A program made the translations under genes and the position numbers. A stretch of DNA of 25,994 nt from a virus: IMG/VR virus record IMGVR_UViG_3300020438_000237, positions 1 through 25,994 of that record. One strand, written 5' to 3'. Below, in pieces: positions 1,390 to 18,693 of the stretch (its first letter is position 1; each line of letters starts with the position of its first letter). The notes under the pieces are model-generated. The model was not told where the DNA came from. It did no database searches and saw only the letters and a program-made list of their open reading frames with translations.

Positions 1390-1497
1390 ATGCTAATCTA
1401 TCGGCGTGTGTGGGGTCTTGTATGTAACTAGTGGAAACTAGGCTACACTAGATATCTGCAAGAACTAGACCTCTATTACTAGAGGTCTTTTTTTTTT
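1390..1497 (+). ncRNA. Possible small RNA between two terminators
   Basis: About 80 bases without a gene lie between the terminators at 1365 and 1467. A small hairpin can form (CTAG at 1427-1430 with CTAG at 1437-1440, extended by TGTA/TACA), and TGCTAATCT at 1391-1399 resembles an extended -10 element. A transcript starting near 1405 and ending at the second terminator would be about 90 nt. This is speculative: there is no recognised family, and the second terminator may serve only as a backup. Confidence 0.2.
1467..1497 (+). terminator. Rho-independent terminator, second in tandem
   Basis: AGACCTCT (1467-1474) pairs with AGAGGTCT (1481-1488) around ATTACT, followed by about ten T residues to 1497. 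On the minus strand the same stem is followed only by AGTTCTT, so it may also weakly end the minus-strand gene whose stop codon is at 1496-1498. Confidence 0.85.
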
Positions 1498-1726
1498 ATC
1501 TTCTTGGTTTTATTTCTACTACTGCTAGTTCTACTTCCTTGAGGCGATGAAACACTTCTTTCATATCATCATGCATATCATCTATTTTTGTTGATAATAA
1601 TTCTATTGCGGTTGTATTACGAACAAGGTCATCTCGTGATTGTCTACCGCGATAAGAAACAGAGCCAACAGAGACGAAGCAAGCTGTCATCAAAGCTCCA
1701 CCGACTGCTGCAATTACTTCAACCAC
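1496..1726 (-). CDS. Small membrane/coiled-coil protein, 76 aa
   Basis: The product has one hydrophobic segment near its N-terminus (IAAVGGALMTACFVSVGSV, residues 5-23), then a charged helical tail with heptad-like spacing (STKIDDMHDDMKEVFHRLKE). This is the plan of many small phage lysis or envelope proteins, but no specific family is clear. I chose the GTG start at 1726 because a GAGGA ribosome-binding site lies 8 bases upstream of it. The longer ATG versions (from 1771 or 1849) add a Cys/Phe-rich stretch with no ribosome-binding site, overlapping the start of the plus-strand gene at 1770. CATAAT on the minus strand near 1754-1749 could be its -10 element. It is divergent from the export cassette and convergent with the 911 unit. 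Confidence 0.6.
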   Translation of the reverse strand: MVEVIAAVGGALMTACFVSVGSVSYRGRQSRDDLVRNTTAIELLSTKIDDMHDDMKEVFHRLKEVELAVVEIKPRR

Positions 1727-1769
1727 TTTACGATTCCTCAATATATTACTATTATGACAGAAAACAGCC

Positions 1770-2129
1770 ATGACAGAACAAAAAAAGAAAAACGCATTCC
1801 AAAAACTTAAAGATGGTTTGGATGATAAAGAAGAACAACTAGCTATCATCAGTCTTTTCGTAAGATTGGGCGTTGTGGTTTGGAGCGGTTTTATCGTAAC
1901 TTTAAACTACATAACAATACCTGGCTATAGTTCTGACCCTAAAGACATAACTTTCCCGGCTAGTTTATTAACAGGTGCGCTTGCTACTTTTGGATTGGAA
2001 GGATCTAAAAAACGTAGTGATAAAGACCTCAAAGTTGCAGAAAACCAAGGTATGGTGCAGACTATAAGGGTAGAAACACCTATTAAAATTGAAGGTGCAG
2101 AAGTAATCGACCCTAAATCTAAAAAATGA
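1770..2129 (+). CDS. Holin-like small membrane protein, 119 aa
   Basis: A charged N-terminus (about 25 residues, Lys-rich) is followed by two hydrophobic segments: about residues 25-46 (IISLFVRLGVVVWSGFIVTL) and 60-77 (TFPASLLTGALATFGLEG). A hydrophilic tail follows. Size, two membrane spans and charged ends fit holins or holin-like proteins, and similar proteins occur in marine cyanophages. The function is inferred, not shown by a family signature. The gene leads a plus-strand cassette: its stop overlaps the start of the first secreted protein by 4 bases. A 9-base repeat of the start region (ATGACAGAA at 1754 and 1770) leaves the true start slightly uncertain; the ATG at 1754 reads only a short 18-codon frame. 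Confidence 0.6.
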   Translation: MTEQKKKNAFQKLKDGLDDKEEQLAIISLFVRLGVVVWSGFIVTLNYITIPGYSSDPKDITFPASLLTGALATFGLEGSKKRSDKDLKVAENQGMVQTIRVETPIKIEGAEVIDPKSKK

Positions 2130-2611
2130 AAAAACTTTTTCCGTTTATTTTTGCTCTTGCAGCATCTTCCCCTGTTTATGCTGATATAACTTCGTCTATC
2201 AGTTCATCTGTAAAATTAGAAGTTTCTGCGGCAGCGACAGCAGCAGATCGTATTGGAAACTCATATAGTGTTTCTGGAACTGGAGTTACCACAACAGATG
2301 GAACTACTGCTGGAAGTGTTGGAGGATTAGGTGCTGCAACTAATGGTGTAAACGCTTATACGCCAATCACAGCTAGTCAGTTAACAGATGGCGAGAGCTT
2401 CAATTACACGGTTTCACATACTACTGGAGATACCATAGGCACAAGTCTTACCACAGGTGAAGTAAGTGCCTTTGGTGATATAACAAGTACATCTGGAGGA
2501 ACAGCAACGAACCTAGCTGGTACTGTAGATAATCATGTTATTACACTTACAGCCGGATCTCAAGGCACAACTGCTACTGGACAATATGTAACCACAGTAA
2601 CGGTAGACTAA
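2126..2611 (+). CDS. Secreted Ser/Thr/Gly-rich protein A of the export cassette
   Basis: The 161-aa product begins with a classic Sec signal peptide: MKK, a hydrophobic core to about residue 14, and likely cleavage after VYA (residue 19). The mature part is low in charge, has no cysteine, and is rich in Thr, Ser and Gly, suggesting an exported beta-rich structural protein. It shares blocks with the next gene: SYSVSGTGVTTTDG against EYTVTGTGISHDGG, and DGESFNYTVSHTTG against SGNSFQFTETYHGPG, in the same order. The two are therefore diverged duplicates. The start overlaps the holin-like gene (ATGA), implying coupled translation. I do not recognise the family; a host-envelope or extracellular role is inferred only from the signal peptide. 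Confidence 0.7.
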   Translation: MKKLFPFIFALAASSPVYADITSSISSSVKLEVSAAATAADRIGNSYSVSGTGVTTTDGTTAGSVGGLGAATNGVNAYTPITASQLTDGESFNYTVSHTTGDTIGTSLTTGEVSAFGDITSTSGGTATNLAGTVDNHVITLTAGSQGTTATGQYVTTVTVD

Positions 2612-2617
2612 TGAGTC

Positions 2618-3046
2618 ATGCGAAAGCTTTTATTACTATTATTTTTATATGTTTTACCAGCTAATGCCAATATTGTTCCTAATTTTACTACCGGGACAAT
2701 GTCTAGTACAACCTCTACAACTTCTACTCTCTCAGAATCGATTACTAGCAAAGATTTTTCAACAGGTTACGAATATACAGTTACAGGCACAGGAATATCA
2801 CATGATGGAGGAAATATGGCAGCAACCGCAGTTGAAGTTAATGGAACTGTAGGAGGTACTACTTATAAATGGACAGGATTAGATATGACAATAAAACCAA
2901 ACTGGACACAAACGAATCCGACATCAGGAAATTCTTTTCAGTTTACAGAAACATATCATGGGCCTGGTTTACAGAACATAACCACAATCCAAAGAGATAT
3001 AACAACAGAGTCCGTTACTACTACTACCTCTGTGTTCTCGCAATAA
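2618..3046 (+). CDS. Secreted Thr-rich protein B, paralogue of protein A
   Basis: The 142-aa product starts with a short Sec signal peptide (MRKLLLLLFLYVLPANA, cleavage likely after residue 17). The mature chain is rich in Thr and Ser, with TMSSTTSTTSTLSES near the N-terminus and ESVTTTTSVFSQ at the end. It repeats the order of motifs of the preceding gene (YTVTGTGISHDGG, then NSFQFTETYHGPG), which supports common ancestry. It has no cysteine. It follows protein A by only 6 bases. Its last 178 bases overlap the long version of the next ORF in another frame, so its C-terminal DNA may code in two frames, or the next gene's start is not yet understood. Confidence 0.7.
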   Translation: MRKLLLLLFLYVLPANANIVPNFTTGTMSSTTSTTSTLSESITSKDFSTGYEYTVTGTGISHDGGNMAATAVEVNGTVGGTTYKWTGLDMTIKPNWTQTNPTSGNSFQFTETYHGPGLQNITTIQRDITTESVTTTTSVFSQ

Positions 3047-3678
3047 TCTTAAGCCCTATAAAAGTTTTAGCTAATGCTGTTAGCCAAAGTAATAGCGGAT
3101 CAGTAACTAATCAGAACTGGAATGTAAACAACGGTAGTTTTCATACAAATCAATATGGCGGAGGGATTGTATGTCAGGGAGCAATGATGACCATAACTCC
3201 ATTTACTACTTTTAATTCAAATTTCAGAAAACCTTATAGAGATTTTTATGAAACTCCTGTTTACGATCAAACAGATATAGTTGGAGATTTTGATGATAGT
3301 GGTAATGCTATAGGAGATGGCACACCTGACAACCCTGGTGTAGTTCTTTATAATCAATTAAATTATTCTGGAACAAATAAAGATAGCTATGCACTTGGAA
3401 CAGGAATAACTCTAAACTTTTCTATTCCATTAGATAGAGGATTGCAGAAACAATGTAAAGAAGCTGCTGCAACTCAAACTAATATACAAAAACAAACCCT
3501 CAAGAACCTTGAACTTGATTGGCATTTTGCAAGATTAAAGCATTGCGGTGAAAAAAAGATTGCTGGAATACGTTTTGCAAAGGATAGCCCTTATTATGAT
3601 TTATGTAGCGATATTGAGATAACGCCTCAAGCAAATCAAGTCTTGCCACATAATCATAAAATTATCAAAAAACCATAA
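2869..3678 (+). CDS. Exported protein C with internal signal-like segment; start uncertain
   Basis: From about 3020 the frame reads a signal-like segment (YYYYLCVLAIILSPIKVLA, then NAVSQ), after which a mature-like chain runs to 3678. No ATG, GTG or TTG lies near that segment. The nearest ATG is at 2869, with AGGAGG 12 bases upstream at 2851-2856. It gives 269 aa with 50 extra N-terminal residues and a 178-base overlap with protein B. The mature part starts Asn/Gly/Ser-rich (SVTNQNWNVNNGSFHTNQYG), contains IVCQGAMMTITPFTTF, and ends in a helical Lys/Gln-rich region with three cysteines (QKQC, KHCGEKK, DLCSD). Alternatives are a frameshift fusion with protein B or a base error in the assembly. 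I do not recognise the family. Confidence 0.6.
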   Translation: MDRIRYDNKTKLDTNESDIRKFFSVYRNISWAWFTEHNHNPKRYNNRVRYYYYLCVLAIILSPIKVLANAVSQSNSGSVTNQNWNVNNGSFHTNQYGGGIVCQGAMMTITPFTTFNSNFRKPYRDFYETPVYDQTDIVGDFDDSGNAIGDGTPDNPGVVLYNQLNYSGTNKDSYALGTGITLNFSIPLDRGLQKQCKEAAATQTNIQKQTLKNLELDWHFARLKHCGEKKIAGIRFAKDSPYYDLCSDIEITPQANQVLPHNHKIIKKP

Positions 3679-3754
3679 AAAATGCCCCTTCAGATTGACC
3701 TGTAAAGGGCTTGTAAAAAAGCTTGCTTATGTTTATACCTTGCAAAAATGGAAT

Positions 3755-3816
3755 TTTTGGCGGCAGACAAGTACGGTAAGACTTGTCTACCTAGACACCC
3801 TATTCTTCGCCAAAAT
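3755..3816. other. Nested inverted repeat at a convergent gene junction
   Basis: TTTTGGCG (3755-3762) pairs with CGCCAAAA (3808-3815). Inside lies a second hairpin, AGACAAG (3765-3771) with CTTGTCT (3782-3788), loop 10 bases. It fills the gap between the converging exported protein C and the 213-aa minus-strand gene. A T-run on the plus strand follows at 3825-3830 but is 9 bases away, so it is not a textbook terminator. A weak GCCC/GGGC pair at 3683-3709 is the only other structure in the 151-base gap. Confidence 0.45.
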
Positions 3817-3829
3817 AAATAAGGTTTTT

Positions 3830-4471
3830 TTATTCTATCTTATCTTTCTTCTTTGTAAGCTTTTTAACAATATTTTTTACTAGCGGTTTGATGATATTAA
3901 GAAGAAGTGGACTACTGGCAGCGACCAGGCCAATAACAGCAGTAGATACAATAGTAGAAACCTCTGGAATGTACTGATCTTTAAACGGAACGTCTTCATA
4001 GATAGTTATACATCTAGTACCATCTTCGCTTTTTTTATGGCCGACAACACGCTCTAATCGTGAACTGTTACGAAAGTCATTTATGCGCTGATCTTTAGGG
4101 CCAGGGCAAGGAACTATTTTTATTTCTTTTTTTTCTTTCGGTATATCTGGTTTTACTTCTTCTTGTATTGGTGTCTCAGTATTTTCTACTCTTTTTTCTT
4201 GTTCTTTATTTTCAACAATTTCAATCTTTCTTCTGTCATATAACATGGGTTCAAATGTAGGCATAGAACCATAGGGACAAGAAATCATTGTTCCTGTTGG
4301 ATCATCATTATATAACGCAGTATTCTTAGCACTTGCATCTCTATGATATTTTACGCAACTTGGTAATTTTATAGATGGTGGTGGTACGTTTAATACTTGA
4401 TATGGAATATGTAATGGTATATCTATTTTTATTTCTGGAATTGAAATATTAGGAATATCAATCGTAGGCAT
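3830..4471 (-). CDS. Proline-rich protein with C-terminal membrane anchor, 213 aa
   Basis: I do not recognise a named family. The N-terminal 35 residues are an unusual run of Ile/Pro dipeptides (PTIDIPNISIPEIKIDIPLH). A central domain holds four cysteines (PSCVKYHRDAS, MISCPYGSMP, IVPCPGPKD, TRCITIY), separated by a Glu/Lys-rich, probably disordered stretch. Near the end comes a hydrophobic segment (STAVIGLVAASSPLLLNII, about residues 175-193) and a strongly basic tail (KNIVKKLTKKKDK). This plan suggests a tail-anchored protein, or one inserted with the basic end in the cytoplasm. It overlaps the mini zinc-ribbon gene by 14 bases and is the last gene of the long minus-strand series, next to the convergent export cassette. 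Confidence 0.65.
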   Translation of the reverse strand: MPTIDIPNISIPEIKIDIPLHIPYQVLNVPPPSIKLPSCVKYHRDASAKNTALYNDDPTGTMISCPYGSMPTFEPMLYDRRKIEIVENKEQEKRVENTETPIQEEVKPDIPKEKKEIKIVPCPGPKDQRINDFRNSSRLERVVGHKKSEDGTRCITIYEDVPFKDQYIPEVSTIVSTAVIGLVAASSPLLLNIIKPLVKNIVKKLTKKKDKIE

Positions 4472-4625
4472 ATTTACGTTTATATACTTCTACATAAGAA
4501 TTACATTTTGGACAAGATAAATTAGTTACCATAGAATATTCTTCTGCAAGAACAGGCTGAAAATCTTGATCTATATCAGCATCAGCACCCCAAATCAATT
4601 CAGTTTTACAATGCCAGCAGTTCAT
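4458..4625 (-). CDS. Mini zinc-ribbon protein, 55 aa
   Basis: This small gene encodes MNCWHCKTELIWGADADID at its start and LSCPKCNSYVEVY near its end: two CxxC knuckles (Cys3/Cys6 and Cys38/Cys41), the plan of a zinc ribbon. Similar very short proteins with CWHC...TELIWG and NLSCPKC blocks are familiar to me from marine cyanophages, without a known function. The middle is acidic. Its ATG overlaps the stop of the upstream 78-aa gene as TAATG, and its 3' end overlaps the downstream gene by 14 bases, which fits translational coupling. DNA, RNA or protein binding are all possible. Confidence 0.75.
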   Translation of the reverse strand: MNCWHCKTELIWGADADIDQDFQPVLAEEYSMVTNLSCPKCNSYVEVYKRKYAYD

Positions 4626-4861
4626 TAAAACTTAGGTAAAGATTTTGTTGGTAAAGGTAATGCTGGACTTGTCATTTCTGGTAACTCTTGATCTAAAACT
4701 TTTGGCATAAGTCCTTGTACATTACCAAGAACTTCGTTCATTAATTTTGTCTTAAATTGTTCTGATGTTACATATTTATATCCAAAGTACCCTCCACCGA
4801 TAACAGAAGTTACCATTAGAAAAGATACAATACTCAAGACGTTAGCTATTTTTTGAAACAT
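4625..4861 (-). CDS. Small single-pass membrane protein, 78 aa
   Basis: Residues 8-29 (VLSIVSFLMVTSVIGGGYFG) form one transmembrane helix after a short N-terminus. A polar helical part follows (TSEQFKTKLMNEVLGNVQGL) and the protein ends in a Pro/Leu-rich tail. This small membrane protein type occurs in marine phages without assigned function. The stop overlaps the start of the zinc-ribbon gene (TAATG). The start codon overlaps, in CATG, the start of a plus-strand 43-codon ORF. No strong ribosome-binding site is visible upstream. Confidence 0.65.
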   Translation of the reverse strand: MFQKIANVLSIVSFLMVTSVIGGGYFGYKYVTSEQFKTKLMNEVLGNVQGLMPKVLDQELPEMTSPALPLPTKSLPKF

Positions 4862-17346: not shown

Positions 17347-18002
17347 ACTTCCACCTGTTCATTTGTGATATTTGCAGAGATCACGACAGATCCAGTCATG
17401 GTACGTCCGTATATCACAGGAACGGCAACACCGGCTTTTGAGGTGTTTTGGATGCCACTAAAATTAAATGACCTTCTAGGGTCTTGGCTACTTTCTGGAA
17501 TAGTTTCCACAGGTGTAAGCATTTGACTTATACCATTCAAAACAAGAGAAGCACCAATCACAGATGTTATTGTTCCTAGTGTAGTCATAGCTGCACTACC
17601 TACTGTAAAACCAGCAGCGATTTGTGCTTGTGTAAGTGTTGTTCCAGCAGCAGCAGATCCTCCAAAACCATAAGTTCCAAACATACCAGCACCAGGAAAC
17701 ATAAAACTAGCTCCAATTAATGCAGCACCTAAAAGTATTCTTCCTGTATTTCCTCCAGCACCTCCAACCACAGGAACAATTTTTATATCATTAGTTCCAC
17801 TAGGATAATGTAATTCTTTCTCCTTAAGTTCCCAATTATCCAAAATAACTTTGTAATGCCTATCAGACATATGTTTTTCTAACTTAGGAAAATTAACGAC
17901 TAAAAATCTTATCGCCTGTGCAGCATTATTAACTTCAGCTTCTAGGTTTTTCTCTCCTAGAAACTTTGCGAGTTCTCCGTATAGCTTAATTTTACGCAGC
18001 AT
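17343..18002 (-). CDS. I: Tail assembly protein, lambda I-like, 219 aa
   Basis: The N-terminal 80 residues ([33 protein letters not shown]) have the ubiquitin-like beta-grasp start of lambda gpI. A Gly/Ala-rich hydrophobic stretch ([40 protein letters not shown]) and a C-terminal block with [19 protein letters not shown] follow, as in the family. Lambda gpI acts in assembly of the tail tip and is probably not kept in the mature particle. The gene overlaps the K-like gene by 11 bases and the J gene by 4. Confidence 0.88.
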
Positions 18003-18693
18003 AACGAATCCTTTTACCTGTGCATTTTAGCAGCCATTCATCTAATAGATCACGACTTGATAATCTATTTTGTAAATGATGCAAAACTGTTTGCTGTCCT
18101 AAGTAAACACCAATATGATTTAATCCGCTACTACTTATTGACATTAATAATAAATCTCCATACCTTAGATCTTCTTCTGGTAACAACTCACGAAAGCCTG
18201 TTTTTGCAAAACAATCTGCAAACATCGGATTTTTTATAAACTCTTCAGATGAATTTGGTCTGATCCAATCTATAAGTTCTATACCTAATTCTTCTTTATA
18301 CCAATCTCTACATAAACTCCAACAATCAGTAACACCCCAAACCCATTGCCTTCCAATTAAAGGAGCTTTATAGCCACAAGGCTCACAATAACCCCATTGT
18401 TTTAGATTAGGTTGGATTATCCACCATTTTAAATTAGATTTTTCACAAGCTACTTTATCAGCTTCGCTTGGATTTGGACTTGTTACAGGATGACTATGAA
18501 CAACACCAATTACTTCTCCTTGATCTTCTGCTTCTATCCAATCTTCTGGTGACAAGATAAATTGATCTGTAGGTTCTGTTGCTAAATTTTGACAAGGAAA
18601 ATATATCTCTTTTCCTTTTTTTACAATTAGCAAACCACAAGATTCTTTTGGATCTGCTTGTATTGCGTGTTCTAGTGCTTCATCTTGCCACAT
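17992..18693 (-). CDS. K: Tail tip assembly peptidase, lambda K-like (JAB plus NlpC/P60)
   Basis: Two domains are visible. Residues about 5-110 are a JAB/JAMM metallopeptidase domain: Glu17 in KESCGLL and [14 protein letters not shown], with His66, His68, Ser76 and Asp79 as the usual zinc-site set. Residues about 115-233 are an NlpC/P60 cysteine peptidase domain, with Cys124 in [11 protein letters not shown] and His193 in LNHIGVYLG; His205 in VLHHLQNRL may be the third residue. This pairing is the plan of lambda gpK, needed for tail-tip assembly and possibly for local cell-wall cleavage. Both active sites look intact. The start overlaps the L-like gene's stop (TAATG). Confidence 0.9.

Follow-up and report, generated by a model that had tools for sequence, protein, structure and literature searches.

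Marine cyanophages of three unrelated lineages share a conserved set of genes for exported and membrane proteins of which the three members traced across 14 genomes (DUF6450, G2 and G3) are present or absent together; the set stands behind late-promoter motifs in the T4-like phages and includes one gene, G3, whose start is buried within its neighbour G2. Because a late, envelope-directed set recurs in three unrelated phage types that infect one host group, and has a small membrane protein at the position of the T7 holin, we tentatively read it, at a little short of an even chance, as a conserved late lysis module in which the DUF6450 protein (G0) is a candidate holin and the exported proteins would breach the outer membrane without lipoproteins. 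Cyanophage lysis turns much of the carbon of ocean picocyanobacteria into dissolved form. If the lysis reading is true, the module would represent a cyanophage route across the outer membrane that does without lipoprotein spanins. A defined, late and shared module also provides named targets for deletion, in phages for which genetic tools are available in the form of a recombination and PCR-screen method (PMC8776855).

The gene set and its neighbours

The stretch of DNA analysed here (the window) is a viral contig of 25,994 bases, a fragment of a viral genome. Its virion genes lie on the minus strand, whereas G0 to G3 occupy the plus strand at its left end (Table 1). The four tightly packed open reading frames described there in an earlier note are confirmed, and we regard them as genes because all of them have matches in conserved families of phage proteins. 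The unit is nevertheless larger than the four genes proposed, as it also includes R234 and R414, and it is not private to one phage. Nor is it closed off from the virion genes in the way that was suggested: the converging minus-strand genes R234 and R414 travel with the module, and the supposedly structured junction at 3676–3830 folds no better than shuffled sequence (z = -0.96).

Table 1 Features of the module and its immediate neighbours in the window
Feature	Description	Position	Strand	Evidence
G0	DUF6450 / phrog_2714, 119 aa	1770..2129	+	Pfam PF20048 E=1.9e-24; phrog_2714 E=6e-33; hydropathy
G1	Exported Thr/Ser-rich protein, phrog_564 (T4-GC 237)	2126..2611	+	phrog_564 E=1.2e-45
G2	Exported Thr/Ser-rich protein, DUF6322 / phrog_650 (T4-GC 236)	2618..3046	+	PF19847 E=1.7e-30; phrog_650 E=6.9e-43
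G3 initiation site	Inside G2: AGGAGG 2851-2856, ATG 2869-2871	2851..2871	+	
G3	Exported protein, four invariant Cys, phrog_848 (T4-GC 235)	2869..3678	+	phrog_848 E=2.1e-72; alignment
R234	phrog_570 (T4-GC 234), four Cys, C-terminal membrane span, Lys-rich tail	3830..4471	-	phrog_570 E=3.7e-37; hydropathy
R414	phrog_568 (T4-GC 414), 78 aa, N-terminal membrane span	4625..4861	-	phrog_568 E=2.5e-17
M0	phrog_26178, one membrane span and charged C-terminus	1496..1771	-	phrog_26178 E=6e-12; hydropathy

The possibility that this was a new system holds in part. Databases already list the genes, under DUF6450, DUF6322, T4-GC 234–237 and PHROGs, and a functional description is what has been lacking; a literature search found no paper on DUF6450 or DUF6322. 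The copies of G1, G2, G3 and R234 in the records of S-SSM5, P-SSM2 and S-SM1 are T4-GC 237, 236, 235 and 234, respectively, and these clusters, together with T4-GC 414 (Sullivan 2010, PMC3037559), are the same genes, known only as hypothetical proteins. The present analysis adds the link across three phage lineages (connecting these clusters with DUF6450, with the T7-like phages and with the siphovirus of the window), the late promoters of both T4-like operons, the buried start of G3 and a function that can be tested.

All three of the proteins expected to be exported (G1, G2 and G3) have Sec-type signals, that of G3 lying behind about 50 extra N-terminal residues. The composition attributed to them, rich in Thr, Ser and Asn, fits mature G1 and G2, in which these residues make up 39% and 43%, but not G3, with only 24%. 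The description 'cysteine-poor' is wrong for G3, the mature part of which has four invariant cysteines that would suit the periplasm. Profile comparison (hhalign probability 96%, E=3.7e-9) indicates that G1 and G2 are remote paralogues.

Structural comparison gave leads at most. The model of G2 (pLDDT 76, pTM 0.38) has two Ser/Thr-rich strands of 23 and 24 residues. The model was compared with beta-barrel pore-forming proteins, in particular the stems of aerolysin and of binary-toxin translocases. Foldseek searches of the PDB with this low-pTM model gave best matches at E 0.018 or worse, with several pore stems among them, and VIA-align gave Z values of at most 3.4 at an rmsd of about 8, which is not significant; in a viral structure library the only strong named matches were to marine phage proteins that appear to be related to G2 itself. 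The model of G3 (pLDDT 67, pTM 0.36) has a group of strands and, after them, a helix of 43 residues, and its Foldseek list, in which nothing is significant, also holds ring proteins. We treat the ring- and pore-forming proteins in the lists of the G2 and G3 models as a lead, and not as evidence of a pore. Searches of solved structures with the G1, G2 and G3 profiles gave no significant match.

Among the neighbouring genes, R234 adjoins G3 in nearly all loci. R414 is conserved in long-tailed and T4-like loci but was not seen among the T7-like ones; its database label, 'plasmid stability', is a label only. Between these two genes (4458–4625, minus strand) lies a gene for a protein of 55 residues that has two CxxC pairs and resembles a zinc ribbon. 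M0 is divergent from G0 and stands beside the module only in some siphovirus-type loci. The start codons of M0 (minus strand, 1771) and G0 (plus strand, 1770) overlap in the tetranucleotide CATG at 1769–1772, and any promoter of G0 must therefore sit within the M0 gene. Farther upstream are two terminator-like hairpins with T tails (1365–1381 and 1467–1488) and, at 160–300, imperfect direct repeats, each about 60 bases long and seen by eye, around AAGGATCATCTTCG ... TGCCTACAGCTTCCTTT.

Distribution and co-occurrence in marine cyanophages

Searches with tblastn found relatives of G1 in 169 phage records, of G2 in 402, of G3 in 438 and of G0 in 311; by name these records are essentially all those of marine Synechococcus and Prochlorococcus phages or of unassigned marine viruses. 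The families occur in long-tailed marine cyanophages, to which the window belongs, and in T4-like and T7-like ones, so that the check for co-occurrence in other marine phages proposed in the earlier note came out in favour of the set: it recurs in three unrelated lineages with its order conserved. Siphovirus-type loci have G0-G1-G2-G3 with R234 and R414 converging on them, and the IMG/VR loci close to the window nearly always show G1-G2-G3 and then R234 and R414 in converging orientation, where the contig reaches. T4-like loci have G1-G2-G3, followed on the opposite strand by R234, R414 and G0. In T7-like phages the order is R234-G0-G2-G3 in a single direction (71 of 80 loci).

Linkage alone is insufficient to account for co-occurrence, because the DUF6450 gene of T4-like phages lies kilobases from G1–G3 and on the opposite strand. 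A search with the G2 and G3 profiles and the DUF6450 family, genome by genome across 14 cyanophage genomes, found all three present in eight (P-HM1, Syn1, S-SM2, S-RSM4, P-SSP7, Syn9, P-SSM2 and S-SSM5) and all three absent by profile search from the other six (S-PM2, PSS2, P60, Syn5, Pf-WMP4 and S-CBS1). This contrast between presence and absence is found within the T4-like phages (S-PM2 versus the rest), within the T7-like phages (P60 and Syn5 versus P-SSP7) and among the siphoviruses (PSS2 and S-CBS1 versus the window).

A first scan of genome contigs for cellular relatives found none. A second scan, of a genome collection, returned 15 loci, and the one examined is T4-like cyanophage sequence. 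This locus (L327) is on the Nonlabens xiamenensis contig NZ_RMVE01000006.1 (188,235 bases), which is filed under a Bacteroidota species; its hsp20, G1, G2, G3, R234 and RegA-like genes are arranged as in T4-like cyanophages, and the contig is probably the genome of a cyanophage that was included in a bacterial assembly. The fourteen further loci may be similar, and on the basis of the one examined we take all 15 to be phage contigs in bins, a reading that is not proven for each. On this reading, the scans of genome contigs yielded no relatives of the module outside phage DNA. This bears on the idea that the exported proteins build a channel or scaffold in the envelope by which the host is kept fed or intact, like other host-support genes of these phages, for which the restriction of the set to phages of marine picocyanobacteria and the database label 'OMP1 protein' borne by some copies could be cited. 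Host-support genes are, however, usually host-derived, whereas no cellular relatives were found here, and such genes would be useful in early or middle infection and not under late promoters. We consider this explanation very unlikely.

A probable start of G3 inside G2

In the -1 frame, the Sec signal of G3, YYYYLCVLAIILSPIKVLANA, spans the stop codon of G2, and there is no ATG, GTG or TTG near it in the window or in nearly all relatives. Because the sole start codon of G3 sits within G2, about 50 residues precede the signal. This codon lies 178 bases upstream of the point where G2 ends and is read in the -1 frame relative to it, and the overlap is conserved.

Three features of the alignments support a start of G3 inside G2. 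Among 74 different relatives, the start codon is ATG in 71 and is preceded by GGAGG in 68. The third bases of fourfold-degenerate codons in G2 are frozen near this site, with an entropy of 0.50 over codons 76–94 versus 1.34 over codons 18–75, a difference that was reached by none of 20,000 permutations. Finally, a T that would make a stop codon in the G3 frame never occurs at the fourfold codons of G2 in the overlap (0 of 521), versus 163 of 530 upstream, and other fourfold codons within the same overlap end in T in 628 of 1,927 cases; the rows counted are related sequences and not independent, but the contrast is extreme nonetheless. Judged from this pattern of conservation, translation of G3 most likely starts within G2, which would give the protein about 50 additional residues N-terminal to its signal. 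The same overlap is found in T4-like and T7-like phages, and P-SSP7 has GTG at the start position. As a consequence of the buried start, database entries for G3 have inconsistent N termini and the export signal is hidden.

A programmed -1 frameshift that fuses G2 to G3 was considered because the signal has no start codon nearby. As the main reading it is rejected, given the conserved GGAGG and ATG and the complete avoidance of stop codons. Such a frameshift may occur in a few relatives (L027 and L028), in which the conserved ATG has been lost and the open frame contains no ATG, GTG or TTG.

Late promoters and genome position

The late promoter published for these phages is NATAAATA (PMC2984593). 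Among non-redundant T4-like loci, [CA]TAAATA stands 27–38 bases upstream of G1 in 38 of 47, where shuffled sequences give 0.84 loci, and at the same distance ahead of DUF6450 in 34 of 39, where they give 0.78. The motif is found ahead of R234 in none of 37 T4-like loci and ahead of R414 in 2 of 40, as expected for downstream genes. The motif therefore suggests that both T4-like operons, the one led by G1 and the one with DUF6450, are expressed late. In the first 100 kb of Syn9 it lies directly before head, tail or baseplate, and fibre genes and not before genes 59, 43, 44, 62, regA and dam; the exception among the replication genes is gene 32, which has a CTAAATA 71 bases upstream. Syn9 G1 itself has no [CA]TAAATA within 120 bases upstream, and the motif was not seen in siphovirus-type loci. 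In the window, the virion genes are followed by R414 and R234, which are read in the direction of these genes.

The module of P-SSP7 is flanked by tail-fibre genes on one side and by the small terminase on the other, a place that we take to match that of the T7 holin gene 17.5. The earlier interpretation of the set as an envelope or release system is supported in part: the T4-like late promoters, and the T7-holin-like position in T7-like phages, favour release over an early change to the surface. A late change to the surface of the infected cell, which would block adsorption of progeny to debris or exclude other phages and have no part in lysis, would agree with a set that consists only of exported and membrane proteins, and the non-significant fold list of G3 contains the surface-exclusion lipoprotein TraT. 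Classical exclusion proteins are early, yet both T4-like operons carry late promoters; the all-or-none linkage with DUF6450 would be left without explanation; and there was no convincing PADLOC match, the single one (E=0.012) being at chance level. We regard this alternative as decidedly unlikely.

Late expression would also fit virion proteins, and the late promoters of the module resemble those of virion genes. The exported proteins could accordingly be associated with the virion, either on the particle or in the maturation of fibres or receptor-binding proteins, with signal peptides that serve a periplasmic assembly step, and the module does adjoin tail-fibre genes in P-SSP7 and in the window. 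Sec signal peptides are, however, unexpected on virion proteins of tailed phages. Matches to virion structural proteins had been named in the earlier note as a result that would count against its proposal, and no module protein matches a virion family in PHROGs or Pfam, the strong PHROG matches of G0–G3 being to families of 'unknown function'. In the T4-like phages, moreover, the set sits among replication genes, apart from the blocks of virion genes. A virion role thus seems unlikely to us.

Comparison with known lysis systems

The preferred reading, lysis, assigns the role of holin to G0. This protein, which had been described as having two membrane spans, has one strong span (residues 25–43) and a second, weaker hydrophobic stretch that falls under the threshold used; both are conserved. 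Class II holins such as T7 gp17.5 provide the closest comparison, because the DUF6450 protein is likewise small with charged ends, occupies the corresponding place in T7-like phages and appears to be late-promoted in T4-like phages (judged by motif only, in the 34 loci above). It differs from them in having no match to a holin model and a weak second span.

The absence of spanins from these phages has been reported before. Kongari et al. (2018) found no spanin in P-SSP7, P-HM1, P-SSM2, Syn9, S-SSM5, Syn1, S-SM2 and others; phages of this host group make up 20 of the 91 spanin-less phages in that survey, which offers only a possible fragility of the host membrane as an explanation (PMC6139136). 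The module cannot be the sole answer to this lack, because S-PM2, P60, Syn5 and PSS2 are also listed as spanin-less (PMC6139136) and do not have it. Neither does it belong to the spanin families, as the lipobox [LVI][ASTVI][GAS]C is found in none of the module proteins of the window. In PHROGs and Pfam, no module protein matched a named holin, endolysin or spanin model.

The module nevertheless resembles the lambda Rz/Rz1 and P2-type spanins in comprising small, late, exported or membrane proteins, in the overlap of genes in different frames (conserved in G2/G3, in the -1 frame, although such an overlap is not obligatory in two-component spanins) and in the conserved, disulfide-capable cysteines of one partner, G3. 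It differs in having no lipoprotein, in comprising three proteins rather than two, and in that both G2 and G3 have signals of the cleavable type in place of an inner-membrane anchor and an outer-membrane lipoprotein. The inner-membrane partner of two-component spanins has an N-terminal membrane span and a helical periplasmic part; R414 and M0 have an N-terminal span, and R414 was not seen among the T7-like loci. R234, with its C-terminal membrane span and long N-terminal domain, is reminiscent of the u-spanin of the T1 gp11 type, but it has neither an N-terminal lipobox nor a signal sequence.

We infer a holin role for DUF6450, an outer-membrane target and the formation of a complex. The DUF6450 protein would act as the holin or as another inner-membrane trigger. 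G1/G2 and G3 would be exported through Sec; in the periplasm or outer membrane they would form a complex that breaches the outer membrane and replaces the lipoprotein-based spanins missing from these phages, with R234 and R414 as its membrane-anchored partners. A more specific version, in which Thr/Ser-rich beta-proteins (G1/G2) and a disulfide-bonded G3 composed of strands and a helix form a lipoprotein-free pore or wedge in the outer membrane that is triggered when DUF6450 collapses the inner membrane and has been shared across the three lineages by gene transfer, is in our view doubtful.

The endolysin that would complete such a system is not visible in the window, which is a genome fragment, in agreement with the earlier note. 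Amidase_2 was found in none of 16 genomes, and no endolysin family was recognized when 20 mid-sized proteins from a 55-kb relative were compared with PHROGs and a few more with Pfam. A protein with JAB and NlpC/P60 domains encoded at 17992–18693 (minus strand) of the window is of the lambda gpK tail-protein type and could be mistaken for an endolysin.
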